Virus record (IMG/VR): IMGVR_UViG_3300017779_003527
Coordinates: 1 to 53,778 of that record
Strand: one strand, 5' to 3'
Length of the DNA: 53,778 nt
Source: a virus
Part shown: piece by piece, positions 3,606 to 30,473 of the stretch
Position numbering within the stretch: position 1 is the stretch's first letter
How the letters are laid out: each line of letters begins with the position of its first letter
Notes under the pieces: model-generated
What the model saw: only the letters and a program-made list of their open reading frames with translations
The model's database searches: none
What the model was told of the DNA's origin: nothing
Program-made: the position numbers and the translations under genes

Positions 3606-3902
3606 ATGGATAAAGTTGCGCTATTAGTTGCTGAGTTTGGTTTTCCAATGGTACTTGCATTGGGTATGGGATACTTTATGTGGTATCTGTGGAAGTTTCT
3701 AACATTGGAATTAAAACCAGCACTAGGAACCTCTCAAAAAGAGTTGATCAAATTGATTGATCAAATTAGAATGCTAGATAATGATTTAATTCGTCTACAA
3801 CAAAAGGTAGACACAGTATTAGAGTATAAACAGACTCAAGATATTATTAGAGATGCAGAAAAAGAGAATGCATTTCAGGAGTTAAAAGATAATGGTATAT
3901 AA
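3606..3902 (+). CDS. small TM plus coiled-coil protein (YvrJ-like), second copy
   Basis: 98 aa, start one base after the preceding stop. Same architecture as its neighbour: FGFPMVLALGMGYFMWYLWKF membrane helix (about residues 11-31), then a heptad-like helix (LIKLIDQIRMLDNDLIRLQQ). The tandem pair suggests duplication and perhaps hetero-oligomers. The 3' end overlaps csgF by 11 nt, tying the pair to the curli-like genes. Confidence 0.5.
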   Translation: MDKVALLVAEFGFPMVLALGMGYFMWYLWKFLTLELKPALGTSQKELIKLIDQIRMLDNDLIRLQQKVDTVLEYKQTQDIIRDAEKENAFQELKDNGI

Positions 3903-4392
3903 AATATTACTTAGTTTGGTTGGAGCGCTGGCATTAACAGCACAAGCAGACATAGTACACAAATTTAAAAATCCTTCATTCAGTGGACAAGGCACTGGTG
4001 CTCATTATTTAACAATTGAGAACCAGGAGCATTCAAGGAAGAAGGCAATCGAAGATGCTTTAGAGGCTGCAAGAAAAGCGGCAGAAAGGGAAGCAGAGAA
4101 TACTACATTGGCCAAATTCATGAGGAATCTTGAGTCAAGAATTTACGCACAGTTTGCAAAACAGTTAGTTGACAGTATGTTTTCTAACGACAGTCCAAAT
4201 ACGTTTGGTACATTTACATTAGAAGGTTCAGTCATTACTTGGGAACTTGTTCCCGGTGTTGATGGATCACCAGATGTTATTAGATTAACAGTTGTAGATG
4301 AGTTTGGATCTGAAACCGTTATAGAAATACCGGTTGGAACTGGATACTATTCACAAGACAGTGATGGTAATGGTTCAGATGGGGACGGATAA
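3892..4392 (+). CDS. csgF: CsgF-like curli assembly protein
   Basis: 166 aa; ATG 3892 has AGGAG about ten bases upstream. A signal peptide (MVYKILLSLVGALALTAQA) is followed directly by DIVHKFKNPSFSGQGTGAHY, the CsgF signature (E. coli mature N-terminus: TFQFRNPNFGGNPNNGAF). In E. coli this peptide plugs into the CsgG channel and forms a second constriction. The C-terminal half (FTLEGSVITWELVPG, then VIRLTVVDEFGSETVIEIPV) matches the CsgF beta region. An alanine/glutamate-rich helix (about residues 50-75) is longer than in E. coli, and the end is Asp/Gly-rich. It overlaps csgG by one base. Confidence 0.85.
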   Translation: MVYKILLSLVGALALTAQADIVHKFKNPSFSGQGTGAHYLTIENQEHSRKKAIEDALEAARKAAEREAENTTLAKFMRNLESRIYAQFAKQLVDSMFSNDSPNTFGTFTLEGSVITWELVPGVDGSPDVIRLTVVDEFGSETVIEIPVGTGYYSQDSDGNGSDGDG

Positions 4393-5330
4393 TGGAAGCT
4401 CTACTTGGTTTAATGCTTATCTTAGGAGTCTTACAGGAGTCTGATACTCCAATATGGACTGATGAGCCAATAAAATGTGATCAAGTAGAAATAGTTGATA
4501 TGATAACTGCAGTTGAAAAAGCAGTTAACAGAACCTATCTTTGTGTTGAAGAAGCAGAAGTAATTAACTTACCATCTTACTTAGAACTATTACAACTACC
4601 GGCACCAGACCAAAAACCAGTTGTAGCTGTTTATGATTTTTTAGATAAATCAGGACAAAGAAAAGATTCCGCCTCAGGTCAGTCATTTAGTACTGCTGTA
4701 ACTCAAGGTGGTGTAGAATTATTAATAGATGCTCTAAAAACTGCAGGTGGAGGAACCTGGTTTAGAGTAGTTGAGAGACAAGGGATTGATCATCTAGTTA
4801 GAGAAAGACAGATTATTAGATCCGGAAGAGATGAAGCGGCAAAAGCGCTTAATATAGAGCCGCAAAATATTGGACCACTCTTATTCGCAGGAATGATTAT
4901 TGAGGGTGGCGTTATAGGTTATGACACTAATATAAAATCCGGAGGTCGTGGCGCGCGTATCTTTGGTATAGGCAAAACAAAACAGTATAAACAAGATCAA
5001 GTTACTGTTTCTGTTAGAGCTGTTAGTGTTCTAACTGGTGAAGTATTATTAAACGTCCAAACAAGAAAGTCTATCCTTTCTTATGGTGGCGGTGGAGATG
5101 TTTTTAAGTTTATTGAAAACGGAACCACCTTATTAGAATATGAAGACGGTGTGGGAAATAATGAGAATGTGACTTATGCGGTACGAACAGCTGTTGAAGC
5201 TGCAGTACTGGAATTAATATACCAAGGACATGATAGAGGTTTTTGGACAATCAAGGATGGACATAGGCACCCGCATAATGCGGACGGAACTCAGCTTTTA
5301 CATCCTTTAGAGGGAGAAGGAAATGAATAG
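4392..5330 (+). CDS. csgG: CsgG-like curli secretion channel
   Basis: 312 aa against 277 in E. coli. Core motifs align clearly: PVVAVYDFLDKSGQ, SFSTAVTQGG, WFRVVERQGIDHL, RERQIIR, GGVIGYDTNIKSGGRGAR, FGIGKTKQYKQDQVTVSVR, TGEVLLNVQTRKSILSY and DRGFW. In E. coli CsgG forms a nonameric outer-membrane beta-barrel exporting curlin. Oddities: no lipobox cysteine near the N-terminus (first Cys is residue 29) and an extra N-terminal segment of about 45 residues with C29 and C51. At the constriction loop F56 is kept (F99 here), but N55 is Ser and Y51 has no aromatic equivalent. Confidence 0.92.
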   Translation: MEALLGLMLILGVLQESDTPIWTDEPIKCDQVEIVDMITAVEKAVNRTYLCVEEAEVINLPSYLELLQLPAPDQKPVVAVYDFLDKSGQRKDSASGQSFSTAVTQGGVELLIDALKTAGGGTWFRVVERQGIDHLVRERQIIRSGRDEAAKALNIEPQNIGPLLFAGMIIEGGVIGYDTNIKSGGRGARIFGIGKTKQYKQDQVTVSVRAVSVLTGEVLLNVQTRKSILSYGGGGDVFKFIENGTTLLEYEDGVGNNENVTYAVRTAVEAAVLELIYQGHDRGFWTIKDGHRHPHNADGTQLLHPLEGEGNE

Positions 5331-11617: not shown

Positions 11618-12259
11618 ATGAAATTAAGATTGAGTAAAAACAGACTTAACCCTCATAAAAATTGGAAAAAGGCAATACCAGACAGTGAACTATCTAAGTT
11701 TACTGCAGGAGAGCTAGCATTGTTTGATCAAAACGGTTATGACTTAACTGTAGTAGAAAGAGCATTTGCAGCTGCTAATGGTTATGTTGTTCAAGCTCAT
11801 AGAGACAAATTTACATGCAAGACCCCATGGTTTAGAGATCTTGATGCTAAAACATATGGACCTCATTTAAACCATGCAGATTTATATTTTAGACATGGGT
11901 TTGCAGGAGCAGCACTTAAACAGCTAGAAGAAAGATCCAAAGTGCATCCTATTTTTCATAAGTTTACTCAAATGAGACCAAAATGGGGTATTGATATTAG
12001 TGTCGATTATGCTGACTTTGATGGTAATGTATTTGAATTGTTACACTTTGAATGGGACGGGTTTGATCTTATACAAGTTACTGAACAAAAATTAAAAGTT
12101 GAAAAAATAGTTAAAGGAATAGACTTTGATGCAAAGGCTCAAGAGATGCTTGACAGGAAAGAAGAGTGGCATCATTTAGACTTCTTTGGTCAGTCAGATT
12201 GGAAGCAAGCGTTCTGGGGATTACCAAAAGAGAATTTTAAAGAAGTAATTTGGCGTTGA
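11618..12259 (+). CDS. hypothetical protein, 213 aa
   Basis: Not recognised. Starts 15 nt after the previous stop with AGGAG at 11605-11609. Soluble and rich in aromatics and His (KTPWFRDLDAKTYGPHLNHADLYFRHG, HLDFFGQSDWKQAFWG). No catalytic motif I can name. Its last codons overlap the early promoter for the HAD gene. Composition suggests a conserved cytoplasmic phage protein. Confidence 0.6.
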   Translation: MKLRLSKNRLNPHKNWKKAIPDSELSKFTAGELALFDQNGYDLTVVERAFAAANGYVVQAHRDKFTCKTPWFRDLDAKTYGPHLNHADLYFRHGFAGAALKQLEERSKVHPIFHKFTQMRPKWGIDISVDYADFDGNVFELLHFEWDGFDLIQVTEQKLKVEKIVKGIDFDAKAQEMLDRKEEWHHLDFFGQSDWKQAFWGLPKENFKEVIWR

Positions 12260-24926: not shown

Positions 24927-25443
24927 AGTACTAAAAGGTACAGACATTTATGATGATTTGTATGAGGGTTACACAGCAGGATTTAAGATCATGCGTAACC
25001 TGGTCGATGTTAATTTAACTGCATTAGATGTAGTAAAAGCATATCAACATGCCGACAAGAAAAAGTATCTACAACCTCTAAAAGAAATAAACTATAACAA
25101 TAGATGGTTACAATTTAAGGGAGAGTTCGAGCCTGAATCTGAAAAGGTTGCCAGGTATATGAAAAAAAGGTTTAAGTTCTCTCAACAACACATTTATGCC
25201 AATTGGATACCAGACGGATTTAGTTTTGGAAGACATAAAGATGGTATGGATGTTATTATATTGCAGTGTTGGAACACAGTTGCGTATACTGTAGAAAGCC
25301 CATATGGCGAAAAAGAAAATTCTTCTTTTGTTTTGTCGCCGGGTGATGCAATATATATACGTAGCGGGGTATATCATACCCCTATTATATTTGGCGAAAG
25401 AATGACAATGAGTTTCAGTTGGCCGTTGACTTCCAGTCAATAG
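24910..25443 (+). CDS. cupin/JmjC-like Fe(II) oxygenase-type protein
   Basis: 177 aa. SFGRHKDGMDVIILQCWNTV has H109-x-D111, followed by a beta strand, FVLSPGDAIYIRSGVYHTP with H156, and ERMTMSFSW. This is the double-stranded beta-helix layout of cupin_8/JmjC-type 2OG oxygenases, with the phrase PGDxxYIxxGxxH typical of that group. Probably hydroxylates a protein or small molecule. Overlaps the upstream oxygenase, so the two form a pair. Confidence 0.68.
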   Translation: MATQFEVLKGTDIYDDLYEGYTAGFKIMRNLVDVNLTALDVVKAYQHADKKKYLQPLKEINYNNRWLQFKGEFEPESEKVARYMKKRFKFSQQHIYANWIPDGFSFGRHKDGMDVIILQCWNTVAYTVESPYGEKENSSFVLSPGDAIYIRSGVYHTPIIFGERMTMSFSWPLTSSQ

Positions 25444-25454
25444 CACTGTATAAT
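25426..25454 (+). promoter_or_regulatory. sigma70-like early promoter of the glycosyltransferase cluster
   Basis: TTGACT (25426-25431), 17 bp, TATAAT (25449-25454). The -35 lies in the end of the oxygenase gene. Transcript start about 25461, which makes a leader of about 128 nt that is GC-rich and foldable. Confidence 0.88.
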
Positions 25455-25460
25455 AAACTC

Positions 25461-25588
25461 ATATTCGGTAGAGCATCTGGTAGCTCTACCCGCGGAAAGA
25501 CAATCAAGAGCGGGGGATTGTCGGATAAATGGGCGAGGGTACAAAACGAGGGGCCACATTATCACCTTTAATATTAACAGGACAGTGA
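25461..25588 (+). ncRNA. candidate structured leader RNA with pseudoknot potential
   Basis: The 5' leader is unusually GC-rich for this genome. P1: GGTAGAGC (25467-25474) pairs with GCTCTACC (25483-25490). P2: GACAATC (25499-25505) pairs with GATTGTC (25516-25522). The loop of P2 contains GCGGG (25510-25514), complementary to CCCGC (25489-25493) just before P2, so an H-type pseudoknot can form. A purine-rich stretch (GGGCGAGGGT, GAGGGGCC) follows. Marine phages carry cis-regulatory RNA motifs (manA, wcaG) ahead of sugar genes; whether this belongs to one I cannot tell. Confidence 0.6.
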
Positions 25589-26497
25589 ATGCCAAATAAT
25601 CCGGACACACCATTTAGATTAGATCATCCTCTCCAAGACTATAAAGAACATAGTATAAGAGATAACTTTGATCCTTTAATAATCAATTGGAAAGGTAAAA
25701 TAGGTTACGGTGATATCATATCACCAATTTCGTATGCATATAATATGGCAGAAAAGAACAGTTCAGATGTAGTTCTGAAATTCCATTGGCCAGATCCTGA
25801 ACCTAAATTATACAAAGAATCAGATACAGAAACTATCCAACAATGGATATCTATAACAAATAACATAATAAAGAAACCTCCTTTCTGGGATGTAGGAATA
25901 GAACACGTATATGATAGTCCTCTAGGATACAATCATGATAATTATGATGCACAGGATATGGAGCTTCATAACATGAGATTCTCTCAATATGGGATGAATG
26001 ATGGGGACAATGCTTTTAGTACATACAATAAAATTACTATGGTTACTAGCATTAAACACAAACAACAATTAGCTGACTACGACGCTGGCAAAGCATGGAA
26101 GGACCCGCTCGCAAACACACCTTCTGGAATGGCTTGGCCAAGAGTAGGAGACCTAATTAAGAAACGTGGATGGGATCCTAGACACGTACATTATGCAACA
26201 CCAATGAAAAAAGTTGTTGATTTAATGTTGCAAAGTAGGGGTGTTATAGGGTATCATGGAGCCCATATGTGGATTGCTAGATTATTAGGCATGCCAATGA
26301 TTATATTTTCAAAAGGCAACTTAACTAAAAAAGCATTCCCATGGGCAATAATATTTGAATACTGGAGTGATTATAACCCAGAACTTACTGAAGAATATTT
26401 TCAGCAAAGTATACAAAAGAGAGAGGAATGGATACATGAGTACAAATACTGGCTCACTGAACCGAATTTTCATAGGCTACGACAGCAGAGAACGTAG
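25589..26497 (+). CDS. glycosyltransferase-like protein, GT-B C-domain
   Basis: 302 aa. The N-terminal half has GKIGYGDIISPISYAYNMAE, like the G-x-G-D-x-I start of GT9-type enzymes. The C-terminal half contains SRGVIGYHGAHMWIARLLGM followed by PMIIFSKG, the acceptor/donor cleft motif of GT-B folds. ATG 25589 follows AGGACAGTG. First gene under the structured leader. Donor and acceptor unknown; probably modifies phage DNA, virion or host surface glycans. Confidence 0.6.
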   Translation: MPNNPDTPFRLDHPLQDYKEHSIRDNFDPLIINWKGKIGYGDIISPISYAYNMAEKNSSDVVLKFHWPDPEPKLYKESDTETIQQWISITNNIIKKPPFWDVGIEHVYDSPLGYNHDNYDAQDMELHNMRFSQYGMNDGDNAFSTYNKITMVTSIKHKQQLADYDAGKAWKDPLANTPSGMAWPRVGDLIKKRGWDPRHVHYATPMKKVVDLMLQSRGVIGYHGAHMWIARLLGMPMIIFSKGNLTKKAFPWAIIFEYWSDYNPELTEEYFQQSIQKREEWIHEYKYWLTEPNFHRLRQQRT

Positions 26498-27140
26498 AGC
26501 TTATGATGTCTGTAAGAGTAGTTTAAAATATACTACACTATCAGTACATAAACTTTTTAGTGAAGATATAGAAGAATATAGTAGGGATTGGGGTGAAGTC
26601 CAATCCACTGACTTTACGTTTACAAGATTCTTTGTACCATATCTATCTGGATTCAAAGGATGGTCATTCTTTGTTGACTGTGACTTTCTTTTCTTAGCAG
26701 ATCCTGCTATGCTAATAGATACTTTTGATAACGACAAAGCTGCTTATGTTTGTAAACATCCAGGATATATTCCTAACAGTCAAATAAAGATGGATGGCAT
26801 TCCACAACACAGAGCATTCAGAAAGAACTGGGCTAGCTTTATGGCATTTAATAATGAGCATCCAAGTAATGCAATACTAACACCAGAGTATTGTAATAAC
26901 CATAGACCAGGATTGGACTTCCATCAACTTAGATGGTTAAAGGATGGAGAGATTGGATCAATACCATTAGAGTGGAATTGTTTAGATGAGTATTATCATT
27001 TAGAGAATCCAAAAGCAATACACTATACAGATGGTGGTCCGTGGTTCCCTGATTACCAAGATACGTTCTATGGTGATCTATGGAAAGAAGCAGAACATAA
27101 TTTAATTATGCAAAGAGAATGGGAAAAAGATGAAGTCTAA
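26436..27140 (+). CDS. glycosyltransferase, GT-A fold (GT8-like)
   Basis: 234 aa. Start at 26436 (MSTNTGSLNRIFIGYDSRER) has AGAGAGGAAT upstream and overlaps the preceding gene by 62 nt; a longer in-frame start at 26355 is less likely. RIFIGYDSRE and WSFFVDCDFLFLAD give the DxD (D-C-D) motif of GT-A enzymes; HRPGLDFHQLRW and a terminal HYTDGGPWFPDY resemble GT8 or related families. Second of three adjacent glycosyltransferases. Confidence 0.75.
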   Translation: MSTNTGSLNRIFIGYDSRERRAYDVCKSSLKYTTLSVHKLFSEDIEEYSRDWGEVQSTDFTFTRFFVPYLSGFKGWSFFVDCDFLFLADPAMLIDTFDNDKAAYVCKHPGYIPNSQIKMDGIPQHRAFRKNWASFMAFNNEHPSNAILTPEYCNNHRPGLDFHQLRWLKDGEIGSIPLEWNCLDEYYHLENPKAIHYTDGGPWFPDYQDTFYGDLWKEAEHNLIMQREWEKDEV

Positions 27141-27927
27141 AACTTTAAATGATATAACTGTTATAATGACTTGGTATGGCCAAGAGAATCATTTGTTCAA
27201 TCAAATGCAATTCTATAATTCTATGGCACAGCAGTATCCTCATTTAACTCCTAGACTAATAGTAATAAATGATGGTCATGAAAAAGGCAGAGACTATTTT
27301 AGAGAAGTAATTAAAGTACACAGAGATAGATTTGATCTTACGGGTATTGATGTAATGAAAGATATGGGATTCAATTCTCATGCTTGTAGAAACATAGGCG
27401 TTAAGCAATGTAAGACTGACTGGATGTTATTAATGGACGTTGATTGCTTTGAGTCCATTGGAATGTACAAGTATTTAAGATTCTTTAAAGAATTAAAAGA
27501 TAGCATGTGGTATGCTCCTAAAGCAGATATGGAGATGCCGGAAGAAATGTCTTCATATGAATTGTTGGATCCCAAAGGAATAATTAAATATGTGACACAT
27601 CCTAATACATGGATAATGAGCAAAGAATGTTTTTGGTCCACAGGTGGATATGATTTAGAGTTTCAGGGTGTAAGGCATGGTGATGCAGAATTCTTTACTG
27701 GTATTGGAAGACCAGGTGTTAAAGAATGGGATTATGATTTGCTATCTGATTCTGATAACCATAGAATGATTGTTAAGGTTCCAAAGAGGGATCCATTTTA
27801 TATTAGACAGGAGTCAAGAAAGCAGAAACAAGCATCTCCAATAATAAACTTTGTAAGGGTTAAGAATCTAGATCCTTATAAAAAATATAGGAAAAGATTA
27901 TGGAACACTCCATGGGAGTTTGTGTGA
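27130..27927 (+). CDS. glycosyltransferase family 2-like (GT-A)
   Basis: 265 aa. DITVIMTWYGQEN start, LIVINDG, ACRNIGVKQCKTDWMLLMDVDCF with the D-V-D metal motif, and an NTWIMSKECFWSTGGYDLEF acceptor segment ending in HGDAEF, all typical GT2. Overlaps the GT8-like gene by 11 nt. It ends with TGA inside the gp33 GTG start, so the transferases lie upstream of a transcription factor in one operon. Confidence 0.82.
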   Translation: MKSKTLNDITVIMTWYGQENHLFNQMQFYNSMAQQYPHLTPRLIVINDGHEKGRDYFREVIKVHRDRFDLTGIDVMKDMGFNSHACRNIGVKQCKTDWMLLMDVDCFESIGMYKYLRFFKELKDSMWYAPKADMEMPEEMSSYELLDPKGIIKYVTHPNTWIMSKECFWSTGGYDLEFQGVRHGDAEFFTGIGRPGVKEWDYDLLSDSDNHRMIVKVPKRDPFYIRQESRKQKQASPIINFVRVKNLDPYKKYRKRLWNTPWEFV

Positions 27928-28187
27928 GCAAGAAACAAGTAGAGCTGAAAGTATTATCATCAGCTGAATTTGCTCGTGCTATTGAAGAAGCTGTAGTAGA
28001 TGCAAAAGGTAAGATAACTCACCTTGATGCAGTACAAGACTTTTTAGAAAGAAACGAAGAAGTAGAACCAGAAACACTGGCGTCTCTAATACAGAGAAAT
28101 CAAAAGCTAAAGGCAATCTTGTATGAGAACGCAGAAGGATTAAACCTCGTTCAAAAACAAAGTAGATTACCTTTAGATGAAGAATAA
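27924..28187 (+). CDS. 33: late transcription co-activator gp33-like
   Basis: 87 aa from GTG 27924, which overlaps the previous stop (GTGA) and has GGGAG at 27914-27918. SSAEFARAIEEAVVDAKGKI, HLDAVQDFLERN, ETLASLIQRNQKLKAILYEN, AEGLNLVQKQSRLPLDEE matches the gp33 family, where a terminal L-P motif contacts the clamp. In T4, gp33 bridges RNA polymerase to the gp45 clamp to activate late promoters. Consistent with the NATAAATA promoters in this window. Confidence 0.82.
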   Translation: MSKKQVELKVLSSAEFARAIEEAVVDAKGKITHLDAVQDFLERNEEVEPETLASLIQRNQKLKAILYENAEGLNLVQKQSRLPLDEE

Positions 28188-28959
28188 ACCGTACGATTTA
28201 AAAGATGTAGATTGCATACTAGCCATGTCTGGCGGTATGGATTGTGTTGCATTATTACATTGGCTTTTAAAGAATGGAAGAAAGCCATACATCTTTAGAT
28301 ACGAGTTTTCATCCAACAAAAAAACCAATGCATGGCATAGATCAGCAATAAAAAAAATAGAAGACTATTATAATGTTAAGGTAATTAATTGGAAATTAGA
28401 GCCAGAACACAATCTCAATGGCTTTGTAGACAGAGAAAGAACAAAAAAATACAATAAAGATAAACCTAGAACAAGAGGCATATCTAATACAATACCAATA
28501 TTATCTAAATGGCCTGCAATAGCATATATGATTAATTTTGCAAATCCATGGATTAAAGAAATACATTTTGGAATGTGCTATGGAGGATTGCTAAAGTTTA
28601 ATGATGGCCATAGTGATAATTTATATGATTATAACGACGATGGGGTATTAGAACGAATACCTGCAATGCCATTTGGACTAGACGCAACCAACTATGATGA
28701 TAGGCATAAAAAATTATTTGATGGATACATCAGCAATCTTAAAGACTACGGAATACATACAGAGTTTAAATCACCTATAGGTCATAGAACTAAACTACAT
28801 TTATGGAACACGTTACCAAGAGAAATGCAAAAAGCTGTTGTCACTTGTGGCGAACCAGTGTATAATAAAGATAATACAAAAGTAATTGGTGAATGCGGCA
28901 AGTGTATTAAGTGTCGCGAATTAAATGGAGTAAAGAACTTTGCTGCAAGGCAGGCTTAA
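28177..28959 (+). CDS. QueC-like PP-loop ATPase
   Basis: 260 aa. The N-terminal PP-loop is ILAMSGGMDCVALLHWL; C-terminal TCGEPV...GECGKCIKCREL supplies four Cys of a zinc site as in QueC (7-cyano-7-deazaguanine synthase). QueC uses ATP to convert 7-carboxy-deazaguanine to preQ0. QueD, QueE and FolE are not visible in this window. Phages use deazaguanine DNA modification to evade restriction, which is one possible role. Sequence in between is divergent, so another PP-loop activity is possible. Confidence 0.68.
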   Translation: MKNKPYDLKDVDCILAMSGGMDCVALLHWLLKNGRKPYIFRYEFSSNKKTNAWHRSAIKKIEDYYNVKVINWKLEPEHNLNGFVDRERTKKYNKDKPRTRGISNTIPILSKWPAIAYMINFANPWIKEIHFGMCYGGLLKFNDGHSDNLYDYNDDGVLERIPAMPFGLDATNYDDRHKKLFDGYISNLKDYGIHTEFKSPIGHRTKLHLWNTLPREMQKAVVTCGEPVYNKDNTKVIGECGKCIKCRELNGVKNFAARQA

Positions 28960-28963
28960 ACAA

Positions 28964-29545
28964 GTGGACCCATATGACGCATATGTAAAATACTTAGCAC
29001 TGAAGTCTCACTTTAGTGACAAGAACTACGACTATTTTAAATACAATGGTAAAGTCAAAGCCTGGCGTCAGACATTTGAAACAAGAAAAGACAAATACTT
29101 TTTCTATAAATTAAGCAAGAAGAAAGACCCAGTGGAGTTTCTTGTAGCTAACTTTATAGGTAGTAAAGATTTTTATATTGGCAGTATAAGAGAAGATAGT
29201 GCTGAAGACATCTACATGGAATATAAAAAGAGACATCAATCTCTAACTTATATTTTTAAAGGCGATATAGCTAAAATGAAAGATGACTTTAATGACAATA
29301 TCATTGTGCCTAAGAACGAGCATCCATATCTATTGAGATTATATATGCGTGGAGATATTTGTATTGAAACGTTGACTTTAATTAATAGATGTTGTAAAAT
29401 GTTCGCATATTGGGATAAAGAATTAAGTGATGATATTATGTGGCCTGACATTAAATTAAAAGCCATAAAGTACGAACCTTTTCTTAATGTTGATATAAAT
29501 AAGTATAGGGAGATAATACTCTCTAATTTTAATAAAACGCAATAA
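28964..29545 (+). CDS. 59: gp59-like helicase loader
   Basis: 193 aa from GTG 28964 (DPYDAYVKYLALKSHF follows); TTG 28940 would add eight residues. YDYFKYNGKVKAW, RRDKYFF-like RKDKYFFYKLSK, LVANFIGSKDFYIG and IYMEYKKRHQSLTYIFKGDI align with T4 gp59, which loads gp41 helicase at forks and binds gp32. Adjacent to gene 32 as in T4-like phages. It also carries two candidate promoters for gp32. Confidence 0.85.
   Translation: MDPYDAYVKYLALKSHFSDKNYDYFKYNGKVKAWRQTFETRKDKYFFYKLSKKKDPVEFLVANFIGSKDFYIGSIREDSAEDIYMEYKKRHQSLTYIFKGDIAKMKDDFNDNIIVPKNEHPYLLRLYMRGDICIETLTLINRCCKMFAYWDKELSDDIMWPDIKLKAIKYEPFLNVDINKYREIILSNFNKTQ
29372..29400 (+). promoter_or_regulatory. internal early promoter for gp32
   Basis: TTGACT (29372-29377), 17 bp, TAAAAT (29395-29400), within gene 59. 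One mismatch in the -10. Lies about 170 nt upstream of the gp32 ATG. Confidence 0.55.
29494..29501 (+). promoter_or_regulatory. internal late promoter for gp32
   Basis: TATAAATA within gene 59, start predicted about 29507, leader of about 67 nt to gp32. Early plus late promoters fit the demand for single-stranded binding protein through infection. Confidence 0.5.
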
Positions 29546-29573
29546 ATCGCATACAACGTATATAGGAGTAAAT

Positions 29574-30473
29574 ATGACTGATTCATTCGGCGCACTCAAG
29601 CGCAATAGAGCTGAAGGTTTTGATAAGCTGACAGCATCCCTTAATAAACTACAATCTAAGTCTAGCGGACCTGGACCTGATGAGCGTTTCTGGAAACCAG
29701 AAGTCGACAAAGCAGGTAATGGTTATGCTGTGATTAGATTCCTACCTGAGTCTGAAGGAGAGGATGTCCCGTTCGTAAGAATATGGGATCATGGCTTCCA
29801 AGGAACTGGTGGTTGGTATATTGAGAACTCTCTGACCACTCTTGGCCAAAAAGATCCAGTATCTGAGTATAACTCAATGTTATGGAACTCTGGTATTGAA
29901 ACCAATAAAGATAAAGCTAGAAAACAGAAAAGACGTTTGTCTTTCATTTCTAATATCTATGTTGTTAAAGATCCATCTAATCCAGAAAATGAAGGAAAAG
30001 TATTCCTTTACAAGTTTGGTAAAAAAATCTTTGACAAACTAAACGAATCTATGAACCCGCAGTTTGAAGATGAGTCGCCAATCAACCCATTTGATTTATG
30101 GGAAGGTGCTGACTTTAAACTAAAGATTAGAAACGTAGAAGGATTTAGAAACTATGACAAATCTGAGCTAGATGTTTCAGCTCCTTTATCTGACGATGAC
30201 GAGCAATTAGAGCAAGTATGGAAATCACAACATTCTCTACAAGAGTTTGTTAATCCTACTAACTTTAAAACTTATGAGGAACTTCAATCGAAGCTCAATA
30301 GAGTGTTAGGTCTTGATGGAGCAGCTCCATCTACAACAGCAGAATCTAGTTTTGGTTCTGAGCCAGCAGCTGAAATACCATCAGCTCCAGCAGCACCTGT
30401 TGCACCAGAAGTTATGTCATCAGAATCTGATGATGAGTCTTTAGATTTCTTTAAGAAATTAGCCGAAGACTAA
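29574..30473 (+). CDS. 32: single-stranded DNA-binding protein gp32
   Basis: 299 aa. N-terminal ALKRNRAEGFDKLTASLNKL is the B-domain for cooperativity. The OB core includes FWKPEVDKAGNGYAVIRFLP, NIYVVKDPSNPENEGKVFLY and PFDLWEGADFKLKI; an acidic tail (SESDDESLDFFKKLAED) is the protein-interaction end. The protein has no cysteine at all, so the Cys/His zinc site of T4 gp32 is absent. GGAG precedes the ATG. Its stop abuts the convergent tape-measure stop. Confidence 0.93.
   Translation: MTDSFGALKRNRAEGFDKLTASLNKLQSKSSGPGPDERFWKPEVDKAGNGYAVIRFLPESEGEDVPFVRIWDHGFQGTGGWYIENSLTTLGQKDPVSEYNSMLWNSGIETNKDKARKQKRRLSFISNIYVVKDPSNPENEGKVFLYKFGKKIFDKLNESMNPQFEDESPINPFDLWEGADFKLKIRNVEGFRNYDKSELDVSAPLSDDDEQLEQVWKSQHSLQEFVNPTNFKTYEELQSKLNRVLGLDGAAPSTTAESSFGSEPAAEIPSAPAAPVAPEVMSSESDDESLDFFKKLAED

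Follow-up and report, generated by a model that had tools for sequence, protein, structure and literature searches.

manA and wcaG are orphan structured RNAs found in the 5' leaders of marine T4-like phages, some of them at sugar-metabolism genes (PMC2864571). The gene 32 operator of phage T4 is a pseudoknot of ~28 nt that lies ~67 nt before gene 32 and is accompanied by UUAAA repeats (PMC3014915, PMC535899). The glutamine riboswitches glnA (RF01739) and downstream-peptide are also cyanobacterial and marine leader RNAs.

In this study, a leader RNA encoded by an uncultured marine T4-like phage was analyzed within a 53,778-nucleotide stretch of viral DNA (the window). The RNA resembles manA (RF01745) and wcaG (RF01761) as an orphan structured 5' leader RNA of marine T4-like phages but differs from them in that it is restricted to one locus in one phage clade, and neither the window nor 16 homologous loci match either family. 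Like the T4/RB69 gene 32 translational operator it is a leader RNA of a T4-like phage, and gp59 and a gp32-like gene share its operon; however, it consists of three hairpins and lies 4 kb upstream. A T4-type gene 32 operator, defined as a pseudoknot no more than ~70 nt away from the start codon of gene 32, was rejected on this distance and because the pseudoknot proposed for the leader is unsupported. Searches against Rfam 15 returned 0 matches at the gathering threshold in the window and the 16 homologous loci, and at a relaxed threshold nothing was found on the leader up to an E value of 10.

A sequence-only reading of the window had proposed a riboswitch-like element of known or new class and had named manA, wcaG and glnA as families to search. 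None of these matches the leader, and the known-class option is dropped; a structured, probably cis-regulatory RNA of a new class is supported because the covariation is strong, the loops are invariant and the position between promoter and start codon is fixed. By these sequence comparisons the RNA forms a new family of orphan leader RNAs, belongs to a kind already known (orphan leaders like manA and wcaG) and is a member of no family tested. We consider it a cis-acting family that acts at translation initiation and is probably ligand-responsive, with a probability of roughly 0.6.

Promoter and anatomy of the leader RNA

Upstream of the leader a JmjC/cupin-like gene ends at 25443, and downstream of it the start codon is at 25589. 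The RNA core (25467-25563, three hairpins) lies directly 3' of a near-consensus sigma-70-type promoter, TTGACT-17-TATAAT (25426-25454, + strand), which agrees with the promoter claimed from sequence alone. The same type of promoter precedes the RNA in most homologues, where it is near-consensus, conserved and at a fixed distance from the RNA. The pattern TTGAC-N18-TATAAT occurs 9 times in the window against 0.14 expected (~60x above chance), so it represents a real promoter class of the phage, and these sites are probably its early promoters. Other copies are found, for example, at 12256, 13343, 16760, 20818(-), 22629(-), 23279, 42678 and 50618(-). Just upstream of the leader promoter, the 3'-terminal part of the JmjC-like gene also contains a terminator-like hairpin with perfect pairing, GGGGTATATCATACCCC, and a T-rich run behind it (25366-25382).

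The G+C excess noted earlier was borne out: the leader has a G+C content of 47.7% and the core 53.1%, compared with a window mean of 35.7%, and only 0.035% of the 98-nt stretches in the window reach the G+C content of the core. Single-sequence folding is mildly unusual (z of -1.58, with 9 of 200 shuffles folding equally well), and the case for a fold beyond chance comes instead from covariation across 31 distinct aligned sequences.

Two perfect stems had been described from the sequence, and both were recovered along with a third, P3, that had been missed. The P1 hairpin (25467-25490, +) has 8 bp (25467-25474 with 25483-25490) and the loop AUCUGGUA, which contains a conserved UCUGGU at 25476-25481; across homologues P1 has 7-11 bp, a 2-nt bulge in some sequences and the UCUGGU cap. 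The joining segment J12 (25491-25498, +) carries a conserved G-N-G-G-N-A-A at 25492-25498, with G-N-G-G-N-A-A-G as the consensus among homologues. The P2 hairpin (25499-25522, +) has 7 bp (25499-25505 with 25516-25522) and a conserved GAGCGGG at 25508-25514, its loop in homologues being NN-GAGCGGG-N, with one extra mismatched pair in a third of the sequences. The P3 hairpin (25524-25563, +) pairs 25524-25534 with 25553-25563 as GATAA-(A)-TG-GGC / GCC-(A)-CA-TTATC around the conserved loop GAGGGUAC(A)AAACGAGGG. P3 is built of 5+2+3 bp; every sequence has a one-base bulge in its 3' strand, most have one in the 5' strand as well, and the loop consensus is GAGGG-UAC-NAAC-GAGGG. The 3' tail ACCTTTAATATTAACAGGACAGTGA (25564-25588, +) contains a Shine-Dalgarno-like AGGA and places the start codon 25 nt after P3.

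The near-invariant loop sequences are UCUGGU, GNGG-NAAG, GAGCGGG and GAGGGUAC..AACGAGGGG. About 35 unpaired or loop-closing bases are invariant while the stems of P1-P3 vary, a figure that predates the direct parse, in which some of these bases served as search anchors.

Comparative evidence for the structure

A search with the first gene product identified 58 viral loci, and the RNA was present in 38 of the 38 loci that have a glycosyltransferase homologue of at least 52% identity and enough upstream sequence. Pattern searches added L077/L143, L090 and L134, and the homologues comprise 32 distinct sequences. In a structural alignment of 31 distinct sequences, 98.6% of the paired cells hold standard pairs compared with 70.8% in shuffles, and the covariation score is 0.681 compared with 0.171. 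Both sides have changed in 18 of the 24 pairs (178 double-changed cells), which is the covariation that had been suggested as a check in homologous phage leaders, and sliding the partners by 1-3 columns lowers the pairing to 23-51%. By stem, P1 is retained in each of the 32 distinct sequences and shows numerous compensatory changes, P2 has 100% of its cells paired with double changes in 4 of 7 pairs, and P3 has 99.4% paired with double changes in 7 of 10. This alignment was fitted to the structure; the stems and invariant loops were also seen in an unfitted MAFFT alignment of protein-anchored loci and by direct parsing. These comparisons show a functional structured RNA with compensatory changes that preserve its stems. 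A coding leader, the outcome named beforehand as refuting an RNA element, was rejected: no reading frame is open in all 32 sequences, and the length modulo 3 varies (14/11/7).

The pseudoknot proposed from the sequence did not hold up as a conserved feature. The complementarity between CCCGC (25489-25493) and GCGGG (25510-25514) is complete only in the window and near-identical relatives. As an H-type pseudoknot it has 69% of cells paired and no double change in any pair, with the third (middle) pair, 25491/25512, broken in 23 of 31 sequences and the first pair in 19. The pairs G25492-C25511 and Y25493-G25510 can form in nearly all sequences, without covariation.

Mutual information revealed no convincing tertiary pair among loop positions. 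In one sequence, L005/L261, the U and the C on either side of the middle of the P3 loop have exchanged places, which is a weak hint that these two bases may face each other. Four G-N-GG(G) tracts, one in J12, one in the P2 loop and one on each side of the P3 loop, are the best-conserved portions of the RNA; their Gs are invariant in all 32 sequences while the stems vary freely, and no C-rich partner for them is found anywhere in the molecule. It is conceivable, if very unlikely, that these tracts join as a G-quadruplex-like, ligand-binding core, which would make the RNA a new class of natural aptamer.

Operon context and distribution

The RNA is always found on the same strand as the operon and at its head. 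Where the sequence suffices, the gene order is DUF932, 2OG oxygenase, JmjC (absent in a few), the RNA, an optional gene, GT-B, phrog_28018 protein, GT2, gp33, PP-loop (in some), gp59 and gp32. The window was said to have three glycosyltransferases behind the leader, and these fared differently. The third gene (27130-27927, +) is a family 2 glycosyltransferase (Pfam PF10111, PF00535). The first (25589-26497, +) has no Pfam or PHROG match; it is a putative GT-B glycosyltransferase whose nearest solved fold is the heptosyltransferase TibC (GT9-like). The second (26433-27140, +) belongs to phrog_28018, of unknown function, and is at most a possible glycosyltransferase, since it has no family support for this role and its predicted structure is of poor quality.

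The rest of the block (27900-30473, +) encodes a gp33-like late coactivator, a PP-loop/QueC-like protein, the helicase loader gp59 and a gp32-like protein. The QueC-like gene (28177-28959), between gp33 and gp59, occurs in only a few relatives. The gp32-like single-strand binding protein ORF (29574-30473, +) was assigned by position and by reading its translation, and it begins only 28 bases after gp59. The T4-like genes of the region are gp33-like, gp59, RNase H-like and gp32-like, the last two recognized from their translations; gp59 has at most 41.5% identity to isolated phages, with cyanophages the best.

Five kinds of gene follow the RNA depending on the lineage (GT-B, methyltransferase, GroES-like Cpn10, BFD-like ferredoxin and DUF7230), the optional first gene being a methyltransferase, a GroES-like Cpn10, or a BFD-like/DUF7230 small ORF that precedes the methyltransferase. 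Whichever gene is first, its start codon is 10-38 nt from the end of P3. This constant position with a varying first gene indicates that genes were gained or lost behind the RNA and never between the promoter and the RNA. The GroES-like (Cpn10) co-chaperonin gene lies directly 3' of the RNA at L077:1753-2013 and L134:3927-4187, and at L003:4347-4460 and L004:1774-1885 the methyltransferase start is only 10 nt from P3, without a Shine-Dalgarno sequence.

There is one copy of the RNA per contig, always at this locus in a clade of uncultured marine T4-like phages. When 50,697 phage records were searched, blastn of two leaders gave chance matches only and tblastn of the first gene gave none; 11 DNA-pattern matches in GTDB genomes were all attributed to chance (they lack the remainder of the motif and the best model score is 23 bits). 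Further viral pattern searches found no member outside the orthologous locus among the matches listed. The RNA is absent from 19 loci with distant glycosyltransferase homologues (32-40% identity), from distant phages whose GT-B gene is related (26-40% identity) and in some cases lies beside gp59, and from 96 distant 2OG-oxygenase and gp59 neighbourhoods. The distant T4-like phages L376 (~3640-4670) and L398 (~1280-2210) lack the RNA and have a GT-B-like gene (26-31% identity) that starts just ahead of gp59 and after an apparent gp33-type gene. No description of the motif was noticed in the literature searched.

Probable control at translation initiation and the possible ligand

Structure, conservation, position and promoter were obtained by sequence comparison, and the mechanism proposed would build on them as follows. 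Transcription would start a few bases before P1 at the early-type promoter, and the first ~100 nt would fold into P1, P2 and P3, with the invariant loops and the J12 linker as a binding surface. The folded domain ends shortly ahead of the first start codon and would alter translation initiation at the head of the operon. Cis control at this level is considered most likely because the RNA always sits at a fixed place, with the promoter on one side and the start codon on the other, and lacks a terminator; no stem followed by a T run was found at the position of P3. It counts against this reading that neither a clear sequestration of the ribosome site nor an alternative fold was found, the mean unpaired probability ahead of the start codon being 0.56 with an inconsistent pattern. 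Since all examples of the RNA come from a single orthologous locus, cis action is argued from position and not from independent gene associations.

A trans-acting small RNA or sponge expressed from its own promoter, with the fusion to the genes incidental, would also account for the exposed invariant loops and for an RNA that stays constant despite changes in the neighbouring genes. The missing terminator after P3 and a start codon that is always so close downstream make this reading highly improbable.

The element could instead be constitutive and ligand-free, serving as an mRNA stabilizer or as a ribosome-loading aid (standby site). Two GAGG cores are present in the P3 loop, the RNA sits at the 5' end and is retained with unrelated first genes, and L003 and L004 have 10 nt and no Shine-Dalgarno sequence between P3 and the start codon. 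Simple stabilizers, however, need no invariant loops over such divergent stems, and most homologues have a Shine-Dalgarno-like sequence of their own, so that we regard this function as doubtful. We propose a ligand-responsive element because the stems vary while the unpaired and loop-closing bases remain constant, and a small molecule or an ion would be a somewhat likelier ligand than a protein.

A protein ligand would make the leader an operator through which gp32 or another product of the block represses its own operon. T4 gp32 acts in this manner, by translational repression via leader structure (PMC3014915), a gp32-like gene and replication genes are in the same operon, and the short gap between gp59 and the gp32-like gene leaves no room there for a T4-type operator. 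Against this, the RNA lies 4 kb from gene 32 and directly before other genes, it has neither a conserved pseudoknot nor UUAAA repeats, and an element of 97 nt with so many invariant loop bases is large for the operator of a single protein; we find an operator of this kind unlikely.

A riboswitch that responds to a sugar, or to a sugar nucleotide, which the glycosyltransferases use would have precedents in marine T4-like phages in manA and wcaG (PMC2864571). The size, the three hairpins and the many invariant loop bases resemble aptamers, and the glycosyltransferase block is 3' of the RNA in every case with enough downstream sequence. The link to the glycosyltransferases is real, but in the genomes compared it amounts to synteny at one and the same locus, which gives no independent gene associations and cannot identify the ligand. 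Additionally, the first genes of other lineages have no evident sugar role, gp33, gp59 and gp32 share the operon, and none of the genes in the block was recognized as acting in sugar biosynthesis. Because the first gene changes, a switch that serves a single enzyme is less likely, and a sugar riboswitch is judged quite unlikely.

The RNA keeps its place at the operon head across changes of the first gene and so behaves like a self-contained cassette for 5' control. This orphan RNA family of uncultured marine T4-like phages is well supported and has no entry in Rfam 15. Identifying what binds it, whether a ligand or a protein, would indicate how the phages adjust their glycosyltransferase and replication genes in the course of infection, and could add a class of riboswitch or operator.
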